Of a DNA stretch of 10,478 nt, positions 1,176 through 10,478 are shown in pieces. Origin of the DNA: Pseudomonadota bacterium (lineage in GTDB: Bacteria > Bdellovibrionota > Oligoflexia > Oligoflexales > Oligoflexaceae); assembly GCA_029556045.1 (NCBI GenBank), contig JAKQGS010000388.1, positions 1 to 10,478 on the forward strand. Reading direction: 5' to 3'. Below the pieces are notes generated by a model, which saw nothing but the letters and a program-made list of their open reading frames with translations, had not been told where the DNA came from and searched no databases. Position 1 is the stretch's first letter. Every line of letters starts with the position of its first letter. The translations under genes were made by a program, and so were the position numbers.

Positions 1176-3095
1176 TCAGTGAGGGGCTGGCGCAAGGGGG
1201 ATGTTTATGCGGTTTTCCAGCATTCCCGTATTGAAATACTGCACCCGGGATTCCAGAAACTCCTTCAACTCCATCTGCCGCTGCGGGCTGACACTGGTGG
1301 GGTGTTCCACTCCACCGGTTCGCCAATCAAAAAACACCGGGTGGTCGGCATCGGTGTACCGCATCGCGGTATCGTCTGCCACCAGCCAATATTGGCCACC
1401 CTCATGAAATACGATGGGAACCTTCAGCGGGGTCTTTTCTTCCGTAACGAGACTATGGCCAAAGCGGGCCATGGGGGATGTGGTTGTAAGACCCACGAGG
1501 TTGAGGACGGTGGGCATGATATCGGCCTGTTCCACCAGCGATGTTGGGGGAACCAGTCCCAAGTCCGATTGTGAGGGATGGTAGAACAGCAGGGGCACGC
1601 GGTAGCGGCCGATGTTGCTCTCAAATAGGGGGGTTTCCGACTTAGAGGTGTGATCCGCGGTAATGATGAACAGGGTGTTGTTAAACCAGGGTTTGGTGGC
1701 TGCCATTTCAAAAAAGCGGCGCAGGGCATAATCCGCGTAGCCGAGGCTCTCGTGGATCTCCAGCTTGCCCTTGGGAAAACGACCCTTGAACTCGGGCGGA
1801 ATCGCATAGGGATGATGGGAACTGAGGGAGAAGACGGTGGCCATGAACGGTCCCGGAATCTCATCCAGTTTGTGCGCCACGTACTGAAAAAACGGCTCAT
1901 CAAAGATTCCCCACTTGCCATCGAAATGGCCGGAGTGGGGATATTCGTTTAAGCCCACATAGTGCTGCACTCCCAGCATTTTGGCCATCACATCAAAAAA
2001 CATGGTGCCGTTCTGACCTCCATGAAAAAACCAGGTGGTATAGCCGTTTTGTGCCAGGATGGATGGGAGTCCCACCACCTGATTGCTCTGGTAGGGGGAG
2101 GTGATGAGGGGATCCTCCATCAGATTGGGCAATCCCGCGAGGATGGACGGGAGTGCATCGATGGAGCGACGACCATTGGCAAAATGCAGGGGGTAGAAGA
2201 CGCTTTTGTCAGCAAGCTCGTTGAGAAAGGGCGTATAGTTGGTGGTGCCCTCATGCCGCCCCATGTATTCAAAATTAAAACTCTCCATGATGATCAACAC
2301 GATGTTGGGCTTTTGGTCCCCCAGCGGGGCATGGTCGGAAAATTTCTGCTCCCGTAACACCCGCGTGACCACGTCATCCCATTGGGGAAAAAAAGACACC
2401 GGTTGCAGGTGGTTTTGTTTACCTGATCGCAGCAGGGTGAAAGCACTGTTAAGGGTCAACTGTGCCAGATTGGGATCGGTGGTGTATTCCATCGCGTGCG
2501 CGATATGCAGAGGTTTGGTCTGCAGTCCGCCGCGGGCTCCCAGGCCCCAGAGAGCGACGAACAGGGTAACTTTGAGGGCATGGATGAACCGGGGCCTCCT
2601 CTGCGGCCTGGCATTGACTGGACGAGTGAGATGGATTTGCCAGCGCCAGAGGGCGGCAAAAATGACCAGAGCCAAAACCGGGTAATACCAGTAGTAGAGG
2701 GTGATCTGCCCCGCCTGCTCCCGCATATCCTTGATGATCCCCAGGGAGCCCATGGTCAGACGTTTGCCGGTGAAGTGAAAGTATTCGGTGTCGCCGATAC
2801 AGACAAAAATAAAAAAGGCGTTGCTGGCCGCAAACCACAGATTGAGAAGTCGATGCGGTAGCCCGGGGCGACGGGTCTGCGGGATCAGGCGCAGTAAGAG
2901 ATAAGGCGTATTGATATAGAGCAGGGTGGCTATGTCAAATCGCAGGCCATGCCAAAAGGCGATCATGGTGTCGAGAGAGGAGGTCGCAGTGAAAAGATTG
3001 CGATGACTCAGGAAAAAAAAGAGACGGCACCCTTCATAGATAATCAATAGGGCGGCCAGGGCTGCCAGGATGGGGCGTATCAATCGAGTAGCCAT
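1176..3095 (-). CDS. LTA synthase-family membrane sulfatase / phosphoglycerol transferase
   Basis: A 639-residue protein. Roughly the first 190 residues contain about five hydrophobic segments, followed by an extracytoplasmic alkaline-phosphatase-superfamily domain from about residue 260. Family landmarks are visible: NIVLIIMESF with metal-ligand candidate Glu271; NGRRSIDALPSILAGLP, where Ser311 sits about where the nucleophilic Thr/Ser is expected; FSLSSHHPY with His427/His428; and ITADHTS with Asp481/His482. Known relatives (LtaS, OpgB, EptA-like enzymes) transfer phosphoglycerol or similar head groups onto envelope polymers at the outer face of the inner membrane. The substrate here cannot be read from sequence. 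The ATG at 3095 has GGGGA about eight bases upstream. The gene diverges from the pseudo-receiver gene across an 86-bp gap to the longest possible start of that gene. A transferase acting on glycans or lipids seems likelier than a true sulfatase. Confidence 0.85.
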   Translation of the reverse strand: MATRLIRPILAALAALLIIYEGCRLFFFLSHRNLFTATSSLDTMIAFWHGLRFDIATLLYINTPYLLLRLIPQTRRPGLPHRLLNLWFAASNAFFIFVCIGDTEYFHFTGKRLTMGSLGIIKDMREQAGQITLYYWYYPVLALVIFAALWRWQIHLTRPVNARPQRRPRFIHALKVTLFVALWGLGARGGLQTKPLHIAHAMEYTTDPNLAQLTLNSAFTLLRSGKQNHLQPVSFFPQWDDVVTRVLREQKFSDHAPLGDQKPNIVLIIMESFNFEYMGRHEGTTNYTPFLNELADKSVFYPLHFANGRRSIDALPSILAGLPNLMEDPLITSPYQSNQVVGLPSILAQNGYTTWFFHGGQNGTMFFDVMAKMLGVQHYVGLNEYPHSGHFDGKWGIFDEPFFQYVAHKLDEIPGPFMATVFSLSSHHPYAIPPEFKGRFPKGKLEIHESLGYADYALRRFFEMAATKPWFNNTLFIITADHTSKSETPLFESNIGRYRVPLLFYHPSQSDLGLVPPTSLVEQADIMPTVLNLVGLTTTSPMARFGHSLVTEEKTPLKVPIVFHEGGQYWLVADDTAMRYTDADHPVFFDWRTGGVEHPTSVSPQRQMELKEFLESRVQYFNTGMLENRINIPLAPAPH

Positions 3096-3138: not shown

Positions 3139-3232
3139 CATTAACTTCTACCATAAAGAGTCAAAGCCCTCAATATTTTTAATGAATTTCCGAAGAGGAG
3201 AAGGAAGACGCCTGTTGATGGGAGAGGTTACC

Positions 3233-4477
3233 ATGACGGATATTAAAAACTTGGCGGCGGAATTTGGCATACAGATTCCCAAGGACATCGATAAGAATGA
3301 GACGATTTTGCTGGTAGAGCATCAGCAGGATATCCGCTTGATCGTGGCACACCATCTCAACAAGATCGGCTATCGCAAGGTAGTTCAGGCTGCTAACGGT
3401 ATGGAGGCATTGGAGCAGCTTAAGAAGGGTGACGGCAAGGTCAGTGTGGTGATCAGCGCCATGGATATGCCGATCATGGGGGGCATTCACCTCCTGCAGG
3501 AGATGCAGGATAATCCGCAATACCAGCGGGGGCCGTTTGCGATCTCCATTGAAAACCCCAGCAAAGAAAAAATCATGTACGCCACGGAAAACGGCGTTGA
3601 TGGCATTCTGGTAAAACCATTTAGTTTCAAGGATATCCTGCCCAAACTGCAGCAGGCCTTTCGCGTGTTCCATAATCCCGAAAACCCCGAGAAAGTCTAC
3701 GAGATGGCCAAGCAACGCCTGAGGGAAGGTAACCTGGGTGAGGCCGCCATGATCTATGAACGACTGCAGGTGGTGGCCAAAAATGCCGCCCGGCCCGAAG
3801 TAGGGCTGGCGCGGGTGGCCTTTCTGAAGGGGATGCCTGATAAGGCTATGGGACATCTGGTGGAAGCGGAAAAACGCAACCCCCACTATGTGCCCCTTTA
3901 TGTGCTGCGGGGGGAAATCCTCTCGTCGCAAAAGAAGCTGGAGCCCGCTATCGAGCAATTCAAAAAAGCCATCGAAATATCTCCTCTGAACCCCGTGCGG
4001 TATGAGGCGGTGGCGCAATTATTGTTCGAACTGAATGAATATCAAAAAGCGATTGATATCCTGAGTATCGCCGTGCGCAACAACCTGTCGTTCCCATCCC
4101 TTCATCATTTTCTCAGCCAGGGATTTTTTGCGCTGAAAGACTACAAGAATGCCACCCGGCACGTTCGCTCCGCCTTGAGCCAGGAGCCCGAAAACGTGAC
4201 CTATCTGAATCAGCTGGGGATCTGCTACAAGGAATCCGGTCTGACGGAAGACGCCATGAAGGCCTATAATTCCATCATCAAGCTGGATCCGGACAATAAA
4301 TCGGCCCTCTATAACAAGGCGGTGTTGCTGCATTCCCTCAATCAAAAGGGCGATGCCGTCAAACTGCTGCAGCGCCTGACCACCAAATACCCCGATTTTT
4401 CTACTGCAAAATCCAAGCTGTCCGAGTATGAAAAAGAACTGGCGGACGAAAAAAACAAAGCACCCAAAGCAGGCTGA
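3233..4477 (+). CDS. Degenerate response-regulator receiver domain fused to TPR repeats
   Basis: A 414-residue cytosolic protein. Residues 23-140 form a CheY-like receiver domain: ILLVEHQQDIR, VVISAMDMPIMGG, FAISIEN and ILVKPF. Against the canonical receiver, the acidic pair is Glu29-His30 and the phospho-acceptor position is Ala76 (Asp is normal four residues before the conserved Pro). Ser105 and Lys128-Pro129 are kept. It is therefore probably a pseudo-receiver that cannot be phosphorylated in the usual way. Residues ~150-400 are tandem TPR repeats (for example LYVLRGEILSSQKKLEPAIE and LNQLGICYKESGLTEDAMKA), a protein-interaction scaffold without a DNA-binding output. Upstream in-frame ATGs exist at 3182 (no ribosome binding site) and 3218; I chose 3233 for its GGGAGAGG with five-base spacing. 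The SixA-like gene starts 5 bases after the stop, so they are probably co-transcribed. Confidence 0.85.
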   Translation: MTDIKNLAAEFGIQIPKDIDKNETILLVEHQQDIRLIVAHHLNKIGYRKVVQAANGMEALEQLKKGDGKVSVVISAMDMPIMGGIHLLQEMQDNPQYQRGPFAISIENPSKEKIMYATENGVDGILVKPFSFKDILPKLQQAFRVFHNPENPEKVYEMAKQRLREGNLGEAAMIYERLQVVAKNAARPEVGLARVAFLKGMPDKAMGHLVEAEKRNPHYVPLYVLRGEILSSQKKLEPAIEQFKKAIEISPLNPVRYEAVAQLLFELNEYQKAIDILSIAVRNNLSFPSLHHFLSQGFFALKDYKNATRHVRSALSQEPENVTYLNQLGICYKESGLTEDAMKAYNSIIKLDPDNKSALYNKAVLLHSLNQKGDAVKLLQRLTTKYPDFSTAKSKLSEYEKELADEKNKAPKAG

Positions 4478-4990: not shown

Positions 4991-6910
4991 TTACTTATTC
5001 TTTGATCCATAAAAGGCCTGGGTGATCAGCCGGAACAGGAACTCCGGAAGTTTGGCAGGATCTGCCATGAATTCAAAGCGTTCAAACATTTTTGGGAAGT
5101 AATGACGAGCACTGGACTCAATGGCGTAGGCCATGGTGTAAATACCGGCTTTTTGTGCTTCGCGGCAGGCTTGACGGATATCATCAATGCCATGGGATCC
5201 CTCATAACCGTCCAGATCGGTTGGTTTGCCGTCAGTCAACAGGAGAAGGATCTTCTGCCGGGCCTGGCTTTTGGCCAGCTTTTGCGTCGTATAACGGAGG
5301 GCGGGGCCTAGTCGCGTGTATCCTTGCGGCGATATGCTGCGCGCAACAGCAAAAAAATGATCCCAGGGAGTATCGTGTTCCTTTAACATCTGGAGGTGGC
5401 AGTCCTTACGGGTATTACTCCAGGTGGTGGCAATGGTGATGTCATCGCCGGAATCCTGCAATAATAGTCCGATGAGGCCAATGGCTTCCACGCAGACATC
5501 GATCACTCGTCGATTGGCAACCCAGGCATCCGCTGATTGTGATTGATCGACCAGGATGGACATTTTGCAGGCCCGCTGCTGCACCCGTCGGCGCATGTAG
5601 AAACGGTTGTCTGGATTCCGTTGCATGAGGATTTCGGGAGCTGTCCGGACAAACGCGTCCAGGTCGATCTCAGCGCCATCACTCTGGCGGGGAATCCAGT
5701 GCGGTATGTTGCGCATGGCCTCAAGCTGCTTCTTCCAGCGACTCACCTCTAGGCCATACGTCGCCTCCAGGTGCTGGCGAAAGGCTGACGCCAACTCATT
5801 GAGGGGGGTGGGGGATAAGCCGTGAACTTTTAACGTGCAGTAGTCGGCCCGATAGATTCCCTTGTGTCCAAACCACTCCGGCAGGCGCACCTCATGTCCA
5901 ATCGCTTCCTCCTCCCGGCCGGGATCGAACGCCTGGCCCGGCAGATCAGCCTGAAAGATCGATTGGGCCGCTTCGCCACCCCGTGTAACCTTGCGCAAAT
6001 CCACCTCCGAAAGGGCCTGCAAATGGTCCTGAAGTTCGTCGTCGCCGCTGTCGAGTCGATAGCCACCGTGGTATTCGTCTGCGGTCTCAAGTTTTTCAAA
6101 GGAATGGGTCACGGGGTTGCCCTGCTCCTTTTCCTTTTCTAAATCCACATATTCCGGGGCGGTGGTGCCTTTCTTTTTTAACTCGGTTTTCGGTTTTTCA
6201 TCGGATGGGGTGTGAGGTGTTGCGGGTGTTGGTATCCCCGCAATCATTTGCTGCGATCGTTTGGGCAGATGAGGAAACAGGAGAGACAGGGCCGGCGGAA
6301 GCTTGCGATTGGCCTTAAATATCCTGGACCAGGGACTGCAAAAGTCCCCTAAATCCTGTTTGTCGGCGCCGACGACGCCGGGCGTCTGGCTGCGGGCTAG
6401 CAATTGCGACAGGAGTGCTGTGCCCAGGCGGCGGGTCTGTTCATCCAGATTTGTCTGCATCTCCCCCATGAATTGGCTGATGTCCGCTTGCAGATCCGCC
6501 AGGAACGGCAGATCTTGTTCCAAAAGGACATTGATGAGGGGGGCGTGATAGGCCGCCTCAAGGCAATATTCCAGATCCGATCCCATCCCATAGCGTGAGT
6601 GCAATCCGGCGCGACGCATGGTGGCTGACGCCAATGTCAGGTGCAGATATATCTGCAGGTTTTGTGTTTTACTGGGCGCCACGTCGATTCGTTCGGGAAG
6701 CAGCAGGGCATTACCCACAAATCCCGCCTGCAGGGAGGCAACCGGAACGGGATGAATGGAAGGATGAGATCGATCCAAAATGAACTGACACACAAAAGTC
6801 AGGTAGGGCTGAATCTCGAGAAAATCAACGGCCACCTCGTCTCGTGCGGCGGCGGACCGTTTCTCCCAGCGGGTTAACAGTGAGCCGAAGATGGAGGCAA
6901 AAATATCCAT
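4991..6910 (-). CDS. norD: NorD: VWA-domain nitric oxide reductase activation protein
   Basis: A 639-residue cytosolic protein, close to the usual NorD length. The N-terminal two thirds are poorly conserved, with a charged, Lys/Glu-rich linker around residues 235-275. The C-terminal von Willebrand A domain (from about residue 448) has a complete MIDAS: D455-Q-S-Q-S459, a Thr in QGYTRLGPAL, and LLTDGKPTD. NorD acts with the NorQ ATPase as a chaperone pair needed for an active NorCB complex, likely by iron (FeB) insertion. A longer reading from a TTG at 6949 is possible, but the ATG at 6910 overlaps the norQ stop by one base (TGATG), the arrangement expected for translational coupling, so I use it. 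It is the last gene of the operon and converges on sixA. Confidence 0.93.
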   Translation of the reverse strand: MDIFASIFGSLLTRWEKRSAAARDEVAVDFLEIQPYLTFVCQFILDRSHPSIHPVPVASLQAGFVGNALLLPERIDVAPSKTQNLQIYLHLTLASATMRRAGLHSRYGMGSDLEYCLEAAYHAPLINVLLEQDLPFLADLQADISQFMGEMQTNLDEQTRRLGTALLSQLLARSQTPGVVGADKQDLGDFCSPWSRIFKANRKLPPALSLLFPHLPKRSQQMIAGIPTPATPHTPSDEKPKTELKKKGTTAPEYVDLEKEKEQGNPVTHSFEKLETADEYHGGYRLDSGDDELQDHLQALSEVDLRKVTRGGEAAQSIFQADLPGQAFDPGREEEAIGHEVRLPEWFGHKGIYRADYCTLKVHGLSPTPLNELASAFRQHLEATYGLEVSRWKKQLEAMRNIPHWIPRQSDGAEIDLDAFVRTAPEILMQRNPDNRFYMRRRVQQRACKMSILVDQSQSADAWVANRRVIDVCVEAIGLIGLLLQDSGDDITIATTWSNTRKDCHLQMLKEHDTPWDHFFAVARSISPQGYTRLGPALRYTTQKLAKSQARQKILLLLTDGKPTDLDGYEGSHGIDDIRQACREAQKAGIYTMAYAIESSARHYFPKMFERFEFMADPAKLPEFLFRLITQAFYGSKNK

Positions 6911-7689
6911 CAAAAACTCAGATTGATGAGATCCCGCAGGGCCGAGCAAATCTGCGGATCGTCGGAGAGGGTTTCTGCCAGGGAGACATGAAAGGCTAAA
7001 CGTGGATTCATACCCGCCGTTGTAAGACTGAGGGCATTGACCAGCAGACGGGTCGATACGGTTTCCTTCAGGTTAAGTTCATGCATGCTCCGCACCTTAT
7101 GGGCAAAGGTGACGGCCTTACGGCAGAGCTCGGGCGGCGCTTCCGTGAGGTGATGGAGGATTTCCGATTCGACGGCCATCTCGGGATAATGCAAAGCAAC
7201 CGCGACAAAACGTTGCCGGGTTGAAGGTTTTAACTCGCGAAACCCCCGCTGATATCCCGGATTAAAGCTGGCAACACACATGAAATGAGGGGGAGCCTGC
7301 AGGCTCTCGTTGGTGCGGTCCAGATAGAGTTCCCGCCGATGGTCGGTCAGGGGGTGCAGGGCCACGATGACATCCTCCCGGGCTTCCGCGATTTCATCCA
7401 GGTAGAGGATGCCACCGTGTCGTACAGCCCGTGTCACGGGCCCATCGTGCCACACGGTCTCCATGCCTTGGATCAAAAAACGCCCCAGGAGGTCGGCGCT
7501 TGTAGTGTCTTCATTGCAGGCCACCTTGATGAGGGGGACCTGCAATTTTTCCGCCATATGGGCCACCAATTGTGATTTACCGCATCCGGTGGGCCCCTTT
7601 AACAGGAGTGGCAATTGCTTTCTGAAGCAGGCTTCAAAAACCTCCAATTCCTGGGTGATGGCGCGATAGTAGTGTCCTGTTGTTCCCAT
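6910..7689 (-). CDS. norQ: NorQ: MoxR-type AAA+ ATPase
   Basis: A 259-residue AAA+ protein. Walker A is GPTGCGKS (residues 32-39), Walker B is ILYLDE with Asp98-Glu99, sensor 1 lies in VASFNPGYQRG, and an arginine-rich segment PSTRQRF follows, as in the NorQ/CbbQ group of MoxR ATPases. Such proteins form hexameric rings and work with a VWA partner, here NorD, to activate the membrane reductase. The gene lies 11 bases after norB and its stop overlaps the norD start. All motifs needed for ATP hydrolysis are intact, and the length is normal for the family. Confidence 0.95.
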   Translation of the reverse strand: MGTTGHYYRAITQELEVFEACFRKQLPLLLKGPTGCGKSQLVAHMAEKLQVPLIKVACNEDTTSADLLGRFLIQGMETVWHDGPVTRAVRHGGILYLDEIAEAREDVIVALHPLTDHRRELYLDRTNESLQAPPHFMCVASFNPGYQRGFRELKPSTRQRFVAVALHYPEMAVESEILHHLTEAPPELCRKAVTFAHKVRSMHELNLKETVSTRLLVNALSLTTAGMNPRLAFHVSLAETLSDDPQICSALRDLINLSF

Positions 7690-7700
7690 AGGTCCCTCAT

Positions 7701-9029
7701 TTAACTTTTCAGTTCACCGACAGGCCGGCCAAAACGAATGAAGTTCCATATGAAGGCGGTACAGCCAATCGTGAACAGGGTGGCGGCAAGCACAAGCCCG
7801 AGGAAATGGACCTCCACTTCTTTTTGAACCGCCAAAAAGTCCATGCCGAATTTTCGTTCCAGATAGACCTGAGTGATCCCCGCCACGGCAAAAGCCAGGG
7901 TCATGGCGATCATGCCGATATTGGACGTCCAGAATGCAAACGTATTCATGGGAGTGTCCTGCAGCTTCCGGCCGGTCAGAAACGGCATGGTATAGGTGAT
8001 GATTCCCAGCACCAGGCAGGCATAAGCGCCCCAGAAGGCCATGTGACCATGCATGGCGGTGACCAGTGTCCCGTGGGTATACATGTTTACCTGCGGTAGT
8101 GTGTGAGCAAAACCCAGGAATCCAGCCCCAACGAATGACATCACCGCGCAGCCGATCGTCCAGGACATGGCGGTGCGATTGTCGGGGATCCGGCCGCCTT
8201 TTTTGGCCATGGTTATCGCGTAGATGGCCATACCCAGGAATGCGACGGGTTCGAGAGCGCCGAATATGCCCCCGATCATCAACCAATAACGCGGGGTGCC
8301 GATGTAATAGTAGTGGTGACCAGTGCCTAGGATGCCGGACAGGAAGGTGAATCCCACGATGATGTATAGCCACTTCTCAATGATTTCACGGTCGATGCCG
8401 GTCAGCTTGATCAGCAGAAAGGACAAGATGGCCCCCATAATCAGTTCCCACACGCCTTCCACCCAAAGGTGGACGACCCACCAGCGCCAGTAGGAGTCCA
8501 CCGTCTGGTTGTCGGTGTCGATCATACCGGGCAGATAGAGAAGGGCCGCCATAAGCAGGCCAAAGAAAAGAACCATGCTGGTGGTGGTCATCCGGCGGCC
8601 TTTCCAAATGGTGCCGCCGATCAAGCCGATGAATAAGAGCACATCCACAACCACCAGGTAGTCGAGGGGCCGCGGTATTTCCAGAAACTTACGCCCCTCC
8701 CACCAATTGAAGTGGAAGCCGATGACGGAGATCACCCCCACGACCGCAAAGGCAATGAGTTGCACATAGGCCAGTTTAGGAGCCAGGAGTTCACGATCCG
8801 CCTCTTCTGGAATGATGTAATAGGCGGCACCCATAAATCCCGCCAAAAGCCACATGACCAGAAGGTTGGTGTGGGTCGCTCGGGCGGTATTAAAGGGGAT
8901 GTATTGATGCAGGCCGTCATAACCCATGTGGGCAAACCCCATGATGAATCCGTAGACCATCTGCAACGAGAAAAGCAGCATGCATAATGCAAAAAACCAG
9001 TAGGCGACACGTTGGGAATTATATTTCAT
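7701..9029 (-). CDS. norB: NorB: catalytic subunit of cytochrome c-dependent nitric oxide reductase
   Basis: A 442-residue, roughly 12-helix inner-membrane protein of the heme-copper oxidase superfamily. It reduces two NO to N2O at a heme b3/non-heme iron (FeB) site. All diagnostic ligands are visible: His53 and His328 for low-spin heme b, His326 for heme b3, His186, His237 and His238 for FeB, plus Glu190 and Glu259 at the positions of the two functional glutamates of Pseudomonas NorB; spacings match that enzyme exactly (51, 22 and 89 residues). There is no N-terminal extension of the quinol-type (qNor) enzyme, consistent with a separate NorC. The ATG at 9029 has AGGAGA about eight bases upstream. 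It follows norC by 15 bases and precedes norQ by 11. Confidence 0.97.
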   Translation of the reverse strand: MKYNSQRVAYWFFALCMLLFSLQMVYGFIMGFAHMGYDGLHQYIPFNTARATHTNLLVMWLLAGFMGAAYYIIPEEADRELLAPKLAYVQLIAFAVVGVISVIGFHFNWWEGRKFLEIPRPLDYLVVVDVLLFIGLIGGTIWKGRRMTTTSMVLFFGLLMAALLYLPGMIDTDNQTVDSYWRWWVVHLWVEGVWELIMGAILSFLLIKLTGIDREIIEKWLYIIVGFTFLSGILGTGHHYYYIGTPRYWLMIGGIFGALEPVAFLGMAIYAITMAKKGGRIPDNRTAMSWTIGCAVMSFVGAGFLGFAHTLPQVNMYTHGTLVTAMHGHMAFWGAYACLVLGIITYTMPFLTGRKLQDTPMNTFAFWTSNIGMIAMTLAFAVAGITQVYLERKFGMDFLAVQKEVEVHFLGLVLAATLFTIGCTAFIWNFIRFGRPVGELKS

Positions 9030-9044
9030 CGACAGATTCTCCTG

Positions 9045-9746
9045 TTATTTCAGAGTTTCAAGGAAAGCGACAAGGGCCTCAATATCAGCATCCGCAAGCG
9101 GTAGTTTGGCCATTTTGGCGTCAGGCTTGACCTCCGCCGGATTCTTGATCCAGCGCCGCAGATAGTCCGCCGTGAGTCGCGTGCCAACCCCGTCCAGCGC
9201 AGGGCCCACGTTACCGCCCTGTCCGTTCAAACTATGACAGGCGGTGCACATCTGGCCGAATACTTGTGGCGCTGCGACCCCGCTGGTGGCGTGCGTACCT
9301 GCGGCTCCTTCGGCGACGGCTGCTGTCGTAAGTCGATCCGGTTTGGGGGGAAAACCATTGAGATCCATCTCGCCGATCCATTTCAGAAAGGCGGTCAGAT
9401 CGTTAATCTCTTGATCATTGAAATGATAGTTCACCATTTTACGCTGTCCGGGATACACGGCCTCCGGATCCTTCAGCATCGCCTTGATAAAGGCCTCGCC
9501 TCTTCGTTCGTATACTTTGGTCAGCTCAGGAGCGTAATAGGCTCCCTCCCCCAGAATGGTATGGCAGCCCATGCAATTATTGCGATCCCAGAGATGCTTA
9601 CCACGGACGGCTTCCTCCGAAAGATTTTGCTGCCGGGTTTGACCAGGGATCTGACGGAATGTATCCATCGTCAGCCCCAAAAAGGCGACCGAGCAGAGTG
9701 CCGTGCCGACAAGGAAAAAAAGTTTGGCTTGGGTTTTAGACAACAT
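9045..9746 (-). CDS. norC: NorC with an extra cytochrome c domain (diheme)
   Basis: A 233-residue membrane-anchored cytochrome c. One N-terminal transmembrane helix (about residues 8-27) anchors a periplasmic NorC domain with heme motif CMGCH (58-62), the GEGAYYAPELTKVY stretch typical of NorC, and Met104 (RKMVNYHF) as likely axial ligand. Normal NorC ends soon after, near 150 residues. Here an Ala/Gly/Thr-rich linker (about 138-160) leads to a second class I cytochrome c domain: CTACH (167-171), GNVGPALDGVG, and Met212 as likely ligand, ending in DIEALVAFLETLK. NorC passes electrons to NorB; the extra domain probably takes over electron entry from a soluble donor. GAGGGAA precedes the start. 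First gene of norCBQD. Confidence 0.94.
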   Translation of the reverse strand: MLSKTQAKLFFLVGTALCSVAFLGLTMDTFRQIPGQTRQQNLSEEAVRGKHLWDRNNCMGCHTILGEGAYYAPELTKVYERRGEAFIKAMLKDPEAVYPGQRKMVNYHFNDQEINDLTAFLKWIGEMDLNGFPPKPDRLTTAAVAEGAAGTHATSGVAAPQVFGQMCTACHSLNGQGGNVGPALDGVGTRLTADYLRRWIKNPAEVKPDAKMAKLPLADADIEALVAFLETLK

Positions 9747-9869
9747 ATCGGTTCATTCCCTCACATGAAAAAATACGAATGACATTGATTTCCACTTGTC
9801 CATCTGCAGGTGTCACGATCGATCCCATCGACACAATCCCTGGGAATTGGCTCCCGTGGGTCACAGGAA

Positions 9870-9875
9870 AACATA
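9870..9875 (-). promoter_or_regulatory. Candidate -10 element of the nor operon promoter
   Basis: Read leftward, TATGTT matches four of six -10 positions. If it is used, transcription starts near 9863 and the FNR/DNR-type palindrome at 9899-9912 is centred near -42.5, about where class II activators bind; the absence of a -35 hexamer fits such a promoter. The leader would be about 115 nt. Confidence 0.4.
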
Positions 9876-9898
9876 CGGAATTTATGGGGAAGGCTTAT

Positions 9899-9912
9899 AT
9901 GATCTAAATCAT
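9899..9912. promoter_or_regulatory. FNR/DNR-type activator box upstream of norC
   Basis: ATGATCTAAATCAT is a perfect palindrome in its arms (ATGAT-N4-ATCAT) and differs from the FNR/DNR/NNR consensus TTGAT-N4-ATCAA only at the outer base of each half. Regulators of this family switch on nor genes under low oxygen or NO in many denitrifiers. No NsrR-like site was noticed. Confidence 0.6.
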
Positions 9913-9970
9913 GTAACGAGCGATTTCTGGAAAAAACACGCGAAGAGAAAGGTGGTTCTGGCGGGAAATG

Positions 9971-9976
9971 TATAAT
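9971..9976 (+). promoter_or_regulatory. Candidate -10 elements for the rightmost gene
   Basis: A perfect TATAAT lies here on the plus strand, and another at 10060-10065. Neither has a good -35 at 16-18 bases (TTGAAA at 10042-10047 is only 12 bases from the second). The stretch 9913-10138 is otherwise AT-rich and non-coding, so one of them probably drives the lipoprotein-like gene, but I cannot say which. Confidence 0.35.
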
Positions 9977-10084
9977 AAAAAAAACTAAGGGGATTGGCAC
10001 TAAGTTAAGGTTTCACACCCCTTCTTAAGTCTAATAACTATTTGAAATTACTCCTAAATTATAATTCCTTCGAAAAGTCCTAAA

Positions 10085-10134
10085 CTTCCTCCTCTTGGTA
10101 TCCGACATACCAATGATGAATCAAAGAGGGGAAG
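10085..10134 (+). promoter_or_regulatory. Leader hairpin pairing the Shine-Dalgarno of the rightmost gene
   Basis: CTTCC-T-CCTCTT (10085-10096) is complementary to AAGAGGGGAAG (10124-10134), giving 11 base pairs with one bulged U. This would bury the GAGGGG ribosome binding site. Inside it, TTGGTAT (10095-10101) and ATACCAA (10107-10113) form a perfect seven-base inverted repeat around CCGAC; its first two T overlap the outer stem, so five pairs can coexist with it. The structure could limit translation, or the inner repeat could be a protein-binding site. Confidence 0.5.
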
Positions 10135-10138
10135 CGTC

Positions 10139-10478
10139 ATGATGCCGAATCATACCCAAGGTACAGTTCTGATAACCTCCTCGTGGGGGGGGGGGGCTAG
10201 TATGGTGCTGCATTTAAGCGTCCTTATTTTGATTAGCCTTACGGCAGCGTCCTGTAATTCCAGTCTTAAAGTCAAAACAGCACCAGCTGCTCAATCGGGT
10301 GAAAATACGGCGTTAGACGGCGACGAACCTGCCGATGAATCCATAGATGATCAGTCGATCGACGACCCAACGGAAGGCTCTGGCGACGAATCCGATCCCG
10401 CTGTCTCTTTGCCAGCCAAATTGCAGGACCCGGCCACCTGTATCGACCCTGACTTGTCTCAACTTCGTAAAGGCATAA
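10139..10478 (+). CDS. Putative lipoprotein/exported protein with poly-G tract (partial)
   Basis: An open frame begins at ATG 10139 (a second ATG follows at once) with GAGGGG seven bases upstream, and runs 113 codons to the window edge without a stop. Residues 22-38 (MVLHLSVLILISLTAAS) are a hydrophobic signal segment ending before Cys39, a loose lipobox (A-A-S-C); the following region is rich in Asp, Glu, Ser and Pro, like the flexible tether of a lipoprotein. Twelve consecutive G encode Trp-Gly-Gly-Gly just before this segment. An alternative start is ATG 10202, five bases after the tract, which would give a compact signal peptide without positive charge. No family was recognised. The gene diverges from norC across 392 bp. 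Confidence 0.65.
   Translation, partial: MMPNHTQGTVLITSSWGGGASMVLHLSVLILISLTAASCNSSLKVKTAPAAQSGENTALDGDEPADESIDDQSIDDPTEGSGDESDPAVSLPAKLQDPATCIDPDLSQLRKGI
10185..10196 (+). repeat. Homopolymeric G12 tract (candidate slippage site)
   Basis: Twelve G residues in a row within codons 16-20 of the rightmost gene. With 12 G the frame stays open into the signal segment; with 13 the next codons are GGC TAG, and with 11 the frame meets TAA at the ATT-TAA of 10213-10218. Tracts of this length are typical of slipped-strand phase-variable genes. Confidence 0.8.

Follow-up and report, generated by a model that had tools for sequence, protein, structure and literature searches.

A G12 tract in the translation start region of a probable orphan lipoprotein gene of an Oligoflexia-like bacterium

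Introduction

A run of 12 G occupies positions 10185-10196 of the + strand of the window, that is, the whole stretch of 10,478 nucleotides analyzed here. It lies between an ATG codon preceded by a Shine-Dalgarno (SD) sequence, at 10139, and the hydrophobic signal segment of a lipoprotein-like protein. As judged from the sequence, this reading frame is an orphan, probable surface lipoprotein gene whose translation start region contains the G12 tract. The reading that we favor, with a probability of roughly 0.4, is that a mutable tract would govern how much lipoprotein is made and whether its signal peptide is extended, rather than act as a clean ON/OFF switch.

According to this model, slipped-strand mispairing would alter the number of G. 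Initiation at 10139 would be read through to the lipoprotein only with 12 (modulo 3) G. With other lengths, ribosomes would halt at or just beyond a second ATG at 10202, where the lipoprotein might be re-initiated, unless it starts there directly, the G run serving as SD sequence. Tract length would then determine both the amount of lipoprotein and the presence of a 21-residue extension of the signal peptide. Several results described below count in favor of such graded control: a tract beyond chance length, stop codons close to 10202, a 17-residue signal peptide from this second start, the predicted stabilities of the two SD duplexes, the excess of G tracts ahead of ATG codons in related genomes, the number of these tracts that precede a gene start, the difference between G and C strands, and the precedent of uspA1. 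Others count against it, namely the lack of a convincing relative, the codon score, an n-region with no K or R, the pairing predicted for both SD regions and the flat accessibility of the first one. The same holds for the strand parity at longer distances, the loci of one group of genomes, the absence of enrichment in signal-like N-termini and two loci of doubtful quality.

Should the tract vary, a lineage related to predatory bacteria would have a contingency locus here. The locus would also be a clear test case for one G run serving both as reading-frame switch and as ribosome-binding site. With an invariant tract, it is instead the start of an orphan lipoprotein with an unusual leader, rich in G. 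A single combined literature query on homopolymeric phase variation in Bdellovibrio returned no match.

The G12 tract and the reading frames it connects

The second-longest G run of the 10,478 bases has 6 G, and under a first-order chain 0.005 runs of at least 12 G are expected in the window; the tract is thus beyond chance length. The arrangement described in an earlier note on this DNA, with 12 G between an SD-led ATG and the signal segment, is confirmed at 10185-10196. The same note held that only 12 G (modulo 3) connects the start to the rest of the frame, and translation of the variants with 9 to 15 G agrees: the ATG at 10139-10141 (+ strand) is joined to the lipobox-containing protein with 9, 12, and 15 G only, and these three variants remain open up to the last base of the window. 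The early stops that it announced for 13 and 11 G are also found. At 10 or 13 G, translation from 10139 terminates at the TAG at 10198-10200 (+ strand), 1 nt ahead of the second in-frame ATG (10202-10204, + strand); at 11 or 14 G, the stop is the TAA at 10215-10217, 13 nt beyond the A of this same ATG. The tract and the frames are therefore as first observed. A change in tract length alters the frame read from 10139; from the sequence, it may affect expression as well.

It had further been claimed that the gene is an ON/OFF contingency locus. Its frame arithmetic holds, as does the lipoprotein-like start (see below), but an OFF state at the other lengths need not follow. Ribosomes can re-initiate at distances like those that separate the TAG at 10198-10200 and the TAA at 10215-10217 from the ATG at 10202. 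Since one stop lies 1 nt before and the other 13 nt past the A of this codon, re-initiation could rescue expression and soften any switch. In its strict form, the claim would mean a classic contingency gene that starts solely at 10139 and gives no protein with lengths other than 9, 12, or 15 (modulo 3). The good SD sequence ahead of 10139 and the dependence of the frame on length are what one would expect of such a gene; the position of ATG 10202, well suited to an independent start or to re-initiation, is not. This strict form seems unlikely to us.

The tract may also be real but neutral. The G-rich SD sequence of ATG 10202 would have been enlarged by slippage without any selected switching, binding and spacing being the same above about 5 G. 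The spacer between the tract and ATG 10202, fixed at 5 nt, fits this possibility, for which we see a low probability; the SD-led in-frame start at 10139 is left unexplained by it.

Shine-Dalgarno regions and leader elements

The SD sequence of ATG 10139 is AGAGGGG at 10125-10131 (+ strand). Its predicted duplex with the anti-SD has an energy of -8.2 kcal/mol, vs. -11.0 kcal/mol for the G run ahead of ATG 10202, both computed with supplied anti-SD letters. The earlier note had considered, as a second option, a start at 10202 with the tract as a length-variable ribosome-binding site. As a ribosome-binding site, the tract deserves at least equal weight, in view of the related genes discussed below. 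As to length, however, the spacer is fixed at 5 nt, so that tract length would leave the SD-to-ATG spacing at 10202 unchanged.

Further upstream, a TATAAT at 10060-10065 (+ strand), noticed by eye, is a possible -10 element. No -35 partner was found for it at 16-18 nt, and a scan of the + strand from 9740 to 10478 gave no sigma-70-type pair. Between this possible -10 element and the SD sequence sits a perfect 7-bp inverted repeat with a 5-nt spacer, TTGGTAT-CCGAC-ATACCAA (10095-10113, + strand), a possible operator or hairpin, most of which forms a stem in the predicted leader fold.

For both SD regions, pairing with a CCTCCTC box is predicted; the two boxes are copies of one repeat (D8). Box 1 (10088-10094, + strand) is the predicted partner of the SD sequence of ATG 10139, and box 2 (10176-10182, + strand) that of the G tract. 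An RNA switch operating through the two boxes was considered and rejected: compared with shuffled sequences, the leader fold has no extra stability (z -0.61), and the predicted accessibility of the 10139 SD sequence is flat for 6-15 G, being higher at 16 and 18 G. The flat profile from 6 to 15 G is also in keeping with a neutral tract. A search of Rfam gave no match at the gathering threshold.

The lipoprotein-like protein

From ATG 10139, the reading frame (10139-10477, + strand) comprises 113 codons and is open up to the last base, its 3' end lying past the window. Read from ATG 10202, the protein is MVLHLSVLILISLTAASC. It begins with a lipoprotein-type signal peptide, MVLHLSVLILISLTAAS-C (10202-10255, + strand), with 17 residues ahead of the lipid-attachment Cys, whose codon is at 10253-10255. 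The lipobox, LTAASC, follows the hydrophobic signal segment and passes, from either of the two start codons, a PROSITE-like rule that was applied to starts followed by 45 open codons. In the window, 6 of the 408 starts scored are positive; 4 of them are starts of the lipoprotein-like gene and the other 2, inside norB, are false positives located in a hydrophobic stretch. In 60 simulated windows, only 5 of 14,921 starts pass. The lipoprotein-like N-terminus proposed in the earlier note is thus borne out.

Some features of the signal peptide are less usual. Neither from 10139 nor from 10202 does the translation contain a K or an R in the n-region, before the hydrophobic segment; a positively charged n-region is usual in lipoprotein signal peptides, if not absolute. 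The signal peptide would have 38 residues from 10139, vs. 17 from 10202. Thirty-eight residues are long for a lipoprotein, which argues against a gene switched ON and OFF from 10139 alone. Past the Cys, residue counts show a segment rich in Ser, Asp, and Ala, resembling what may be a surface tether.

Is the reading frame a gene?

Past the tract, the frame has no stop in its 93 codons up to the final base. When the 282 bases downstream are shuffled at constant composition, 1.3% of the shuffles are open in this frame; the two remaining sense frames contain stops. This open frame, the SD sequence and the lipobox were counted as evidence for a gene. Three points were counted against it: the codon usage, the antisense strand and the absence of relatives. 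The synonymous codon score of the frame (-0.097) falls under all 74 overlapping in-frame windows of the seven neighboring genes (minimum -0.05) and inside the off-frame range. Moreover, an antisense frame (10272-10478) is also open and likewise runs off the contig.

As for relatives, no convincing protein match was found among about 5.8 billion sequences, of which only candidates sharing common short words and of fitting length were compared, and plasmid and phage sequences gave no match to the lipoprotein-like protein. Within 368 Bdellovibrionota genomes, 9 have weak matches (10 in total, E 0.004-0.045, some with internal stops), which we take as low-complexity noise. The incomplete frame has no family match in Pfam, NCBIfam, or PHROG. 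Because the protein is incomplete and of low complexity, homology searches are weak in this case.

The assembly or the reads could also be wrong, either in the length of the tract or in the way the last 282 bases are attached. The tract lies 282 nt from the end of what is probably a whole metagenome contig, and the codon usage beyond it is atypical. In related genomes, taking one locus per genome, 6 of 30 loci have a tract at most 282 nt from a contig end, vs. 0.9 expected (p 3e-4); such tracts may cause assemblies to break or to go wrong. Such proximity is compatible with heterogeneity of tract length in the population as well as with an artefact. On the other side, both flanks are unique sequence with no low complexity beside the tract, and among lengths of 10-14 G the SD-led start and the lipobox frame agree only at 12 G. 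An artefact appears to us quite improbable. A combined query on two-color poly-G sequencing artefacts returned no matching literature.

G tracts in Bdellovibrionota genomes

The 368 Bdellovibrionota genomes searched are relatives of the window in a broad sense only. Runs of at least 10 G (G10+) are present in 209 of them. A G10+ run with an ATG 2-9 nt downstream was seen at 81 places, distributed over 64 of the 368 genomes, vs. 33 for the mirrored pattern (binomial p 4e-6), both totals having been tallied by eye from a per-genome table. C tracts followed by ATG show no excess: in 353 of these genomes, 43 places were counted, spread over 33 genomes, vs. 43 for the mirrored pattern.

Eighty of the 81 places were fetched and two of them were one tract, so that 79 distinct tracts were read. 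Thirty-four precede an open reading frame of at least 60 codons and lie outside any longer frame. C tracts before ATG correspond to a gene start in 1 of the 13 seen (8 of them sampled from the 43 places). A comparison of strands, drawing on 123 distinct tracts partly from hand-picked tract-rich genomes, points the same way at short range: the start codon of a frame of at least 70 codons lies 0-15 nt downstream in 9 of 110 cases on the G strand vs. 1 of 111 on the C strand (p 0.011). At 16-60 nt, there is no difference, with 9 such starts on each strand. In the loci of one group of genomes (G011-G105), a gene start follows 0 of 8 G tracts before ATG vs. 1 of 10 C tracts, which indicates that the tract-led pattern is confined to part of the phylum. 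Two of the 34 tract-led loci (L128 and L135) are at contig ends, surrounded by long runs of G or C, and may be spurious.

G runs thus occupy the SD position above chance. This favors the view that the tract acts at ATG 10202, without being in itself evidence of switching. In 26 of the 34 tract-led genes, no in-frame start exists above the tract. This argues against an ON/OFF gene started at 10139 and gives the ribosome-binding role its weight. From these sequences, the ON/OFF gene is one of three plausible readings, and the ribosome-binding role of the tract is somewhat better supported by the related genes. Overall, the earlier interpretation is partly supported.

A wider proposal, to which we give little credence, is that part of the Bdellovibrionota and their kin would use long G runs as SD sequences of selected genes, slippage tuning the translation start in cis. 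The window would add a composite form to this usage, in which ribosomes from the upstream start read through the tract, the tract serves the downstream start, and a stop one base before the second ATG couples both in one of the three frames.

The earlier note had also suggested looking for poly-G tracts near the starts of exported-protein genes. Among the tract-led genes of Bdellovibrionota (G10+ tracts), signal-like N-termini are found in 22 of 34, vs. 40 of 72 SD-led genes in 20 norC neighborhoods (Fisher p 0.41), and an enrichment in exported proteins was dropped. Such an even distribution is what a neutral tract would give.

Individual loci call for a few remarks. One genome (G260) has three G10 tracts (L264, L265, L266), each 3-8 nt ahead of an ATG, whose proteins have a signal-like N-terminus. 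A comparison of tract lengths across species was attempted with one tract-led protein of this genome and abandoned; it has matches in 39 of 39 genomes, but the others among those listed are 33-41% identical, too distant for this purpose. Elsewhere (L062, around position 1501), a G10 tract divides an apparent single gene for an exported protein, presumably of the MBL fold, into two frames; it is a candidate for either a length-dependent gene or an assembly error. A run of 19 G is present on a contig of an Entotheonella MAG (L002:19044-19062).

Comparison with known phase-variable systems

The uspA1 gene of Moraxella catarrhalis is listed with a G tract 29 bp upstream and a graded mRNA output (PMC7302503). 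The present locus resembles uspA1 by a G tract of similar length just before the start of a surface protein. It differs from it in that the uspA1 tract acts on transcription, whereas the present one, known from one sequence, is inside the 10139 frame and 5 nt before ATG 10202.

NalP itself is a surface lipoprotein. In Neisseria, the homopolymer of nalP is listed as "Genic" C(9-13) (PMC5953494), an example of the in-frame tracts that lend precedent to an ON/OFF gene. As in nalP and other Neisseria genes described there, the homopolymer of the present locus is inside the gene of an exported protein. Unlike nalP as it is listed, this locus has a second in-frame start directly after the tract, and the likeness, known here from one sequence, is one of arrangement.

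In Treponema pallidum, poly-G tracts of at least 8 G are found before or inside tpr and other genes, the signal-peptide start of tprL was re-predicted near its tract, tract lengths were measured across strains and promoter constructs were assayed (PMC7864442). The tpr genes and the present locus share a G tract of at least 8 G near a gene start, with a signal-peptide start close to the tract. In contrast, the lineage and the genes are unrelated, and the present tract is known from one sequence. If the tract varies, the locus might work like the uspA1, T. pallidum, and Neisseria loci.

Genomic neighborhood and lineage

A norC-norB-norQ-norD nitric oxide reductase cluster is located at 4991-9746 on the - strand. 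The nor genes of the window resemble those of Bdellovibrionota, NorB being 79-87% identical to its counterparts in the 20 Bdellovibrionota loci compared. These 20 loci and 8 of 16 from other contigs make up a set of 28, in all of which norB adjoins norC, some being interrupted by a contig end. A role of the lipoprotein as a conserved nor partner was rejected, as 0 of the 28 loci has a lipoprotein match at E 1 or better. Similarity of the window to plasmids is limited to patches covering only 2%, in norB.

A response-regulator and TPR protein encoded at 3182-4477 (+ strand) is a possible lineage marker. Its nearest relatives are 86% and then 61% identical. Those that are named, with organism names as written in the source records, belong to Oligoflexus, Oligoflexales, and Pseudobacteriovorax (54-58%), one being labelled Chitinophagaceae (55%) and two Bdellovibrionota (49-53%). 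The protein was not found in the 93 of 368 Bdellovibrionota genomes searched (40 + 53) or in 15 others, a search that scored at most 44 or 25 candidates per genome and was run with no known positive. The source is probably an uncultivated, Oligoflexia-like bacterium, and a Bdellovibrionota-like NorB beside an Oligoflexia-like TPR protein suggests either transfer or shared ancestry.

The lineage of the window should be Gram-negative. A sulfatase-domain protein encoded at 1176-3095 on the - strand matches lipoteichoic acid synthase below the threshold, with 79 bits vs. a cut-off of 970. Finally, about 150 nt upstream of norC, a TGAT-CTAA-ATCA box at 9900-9911, which we take to be FNR/DNR-like, is the one match found in the window, with 0.28 expected.
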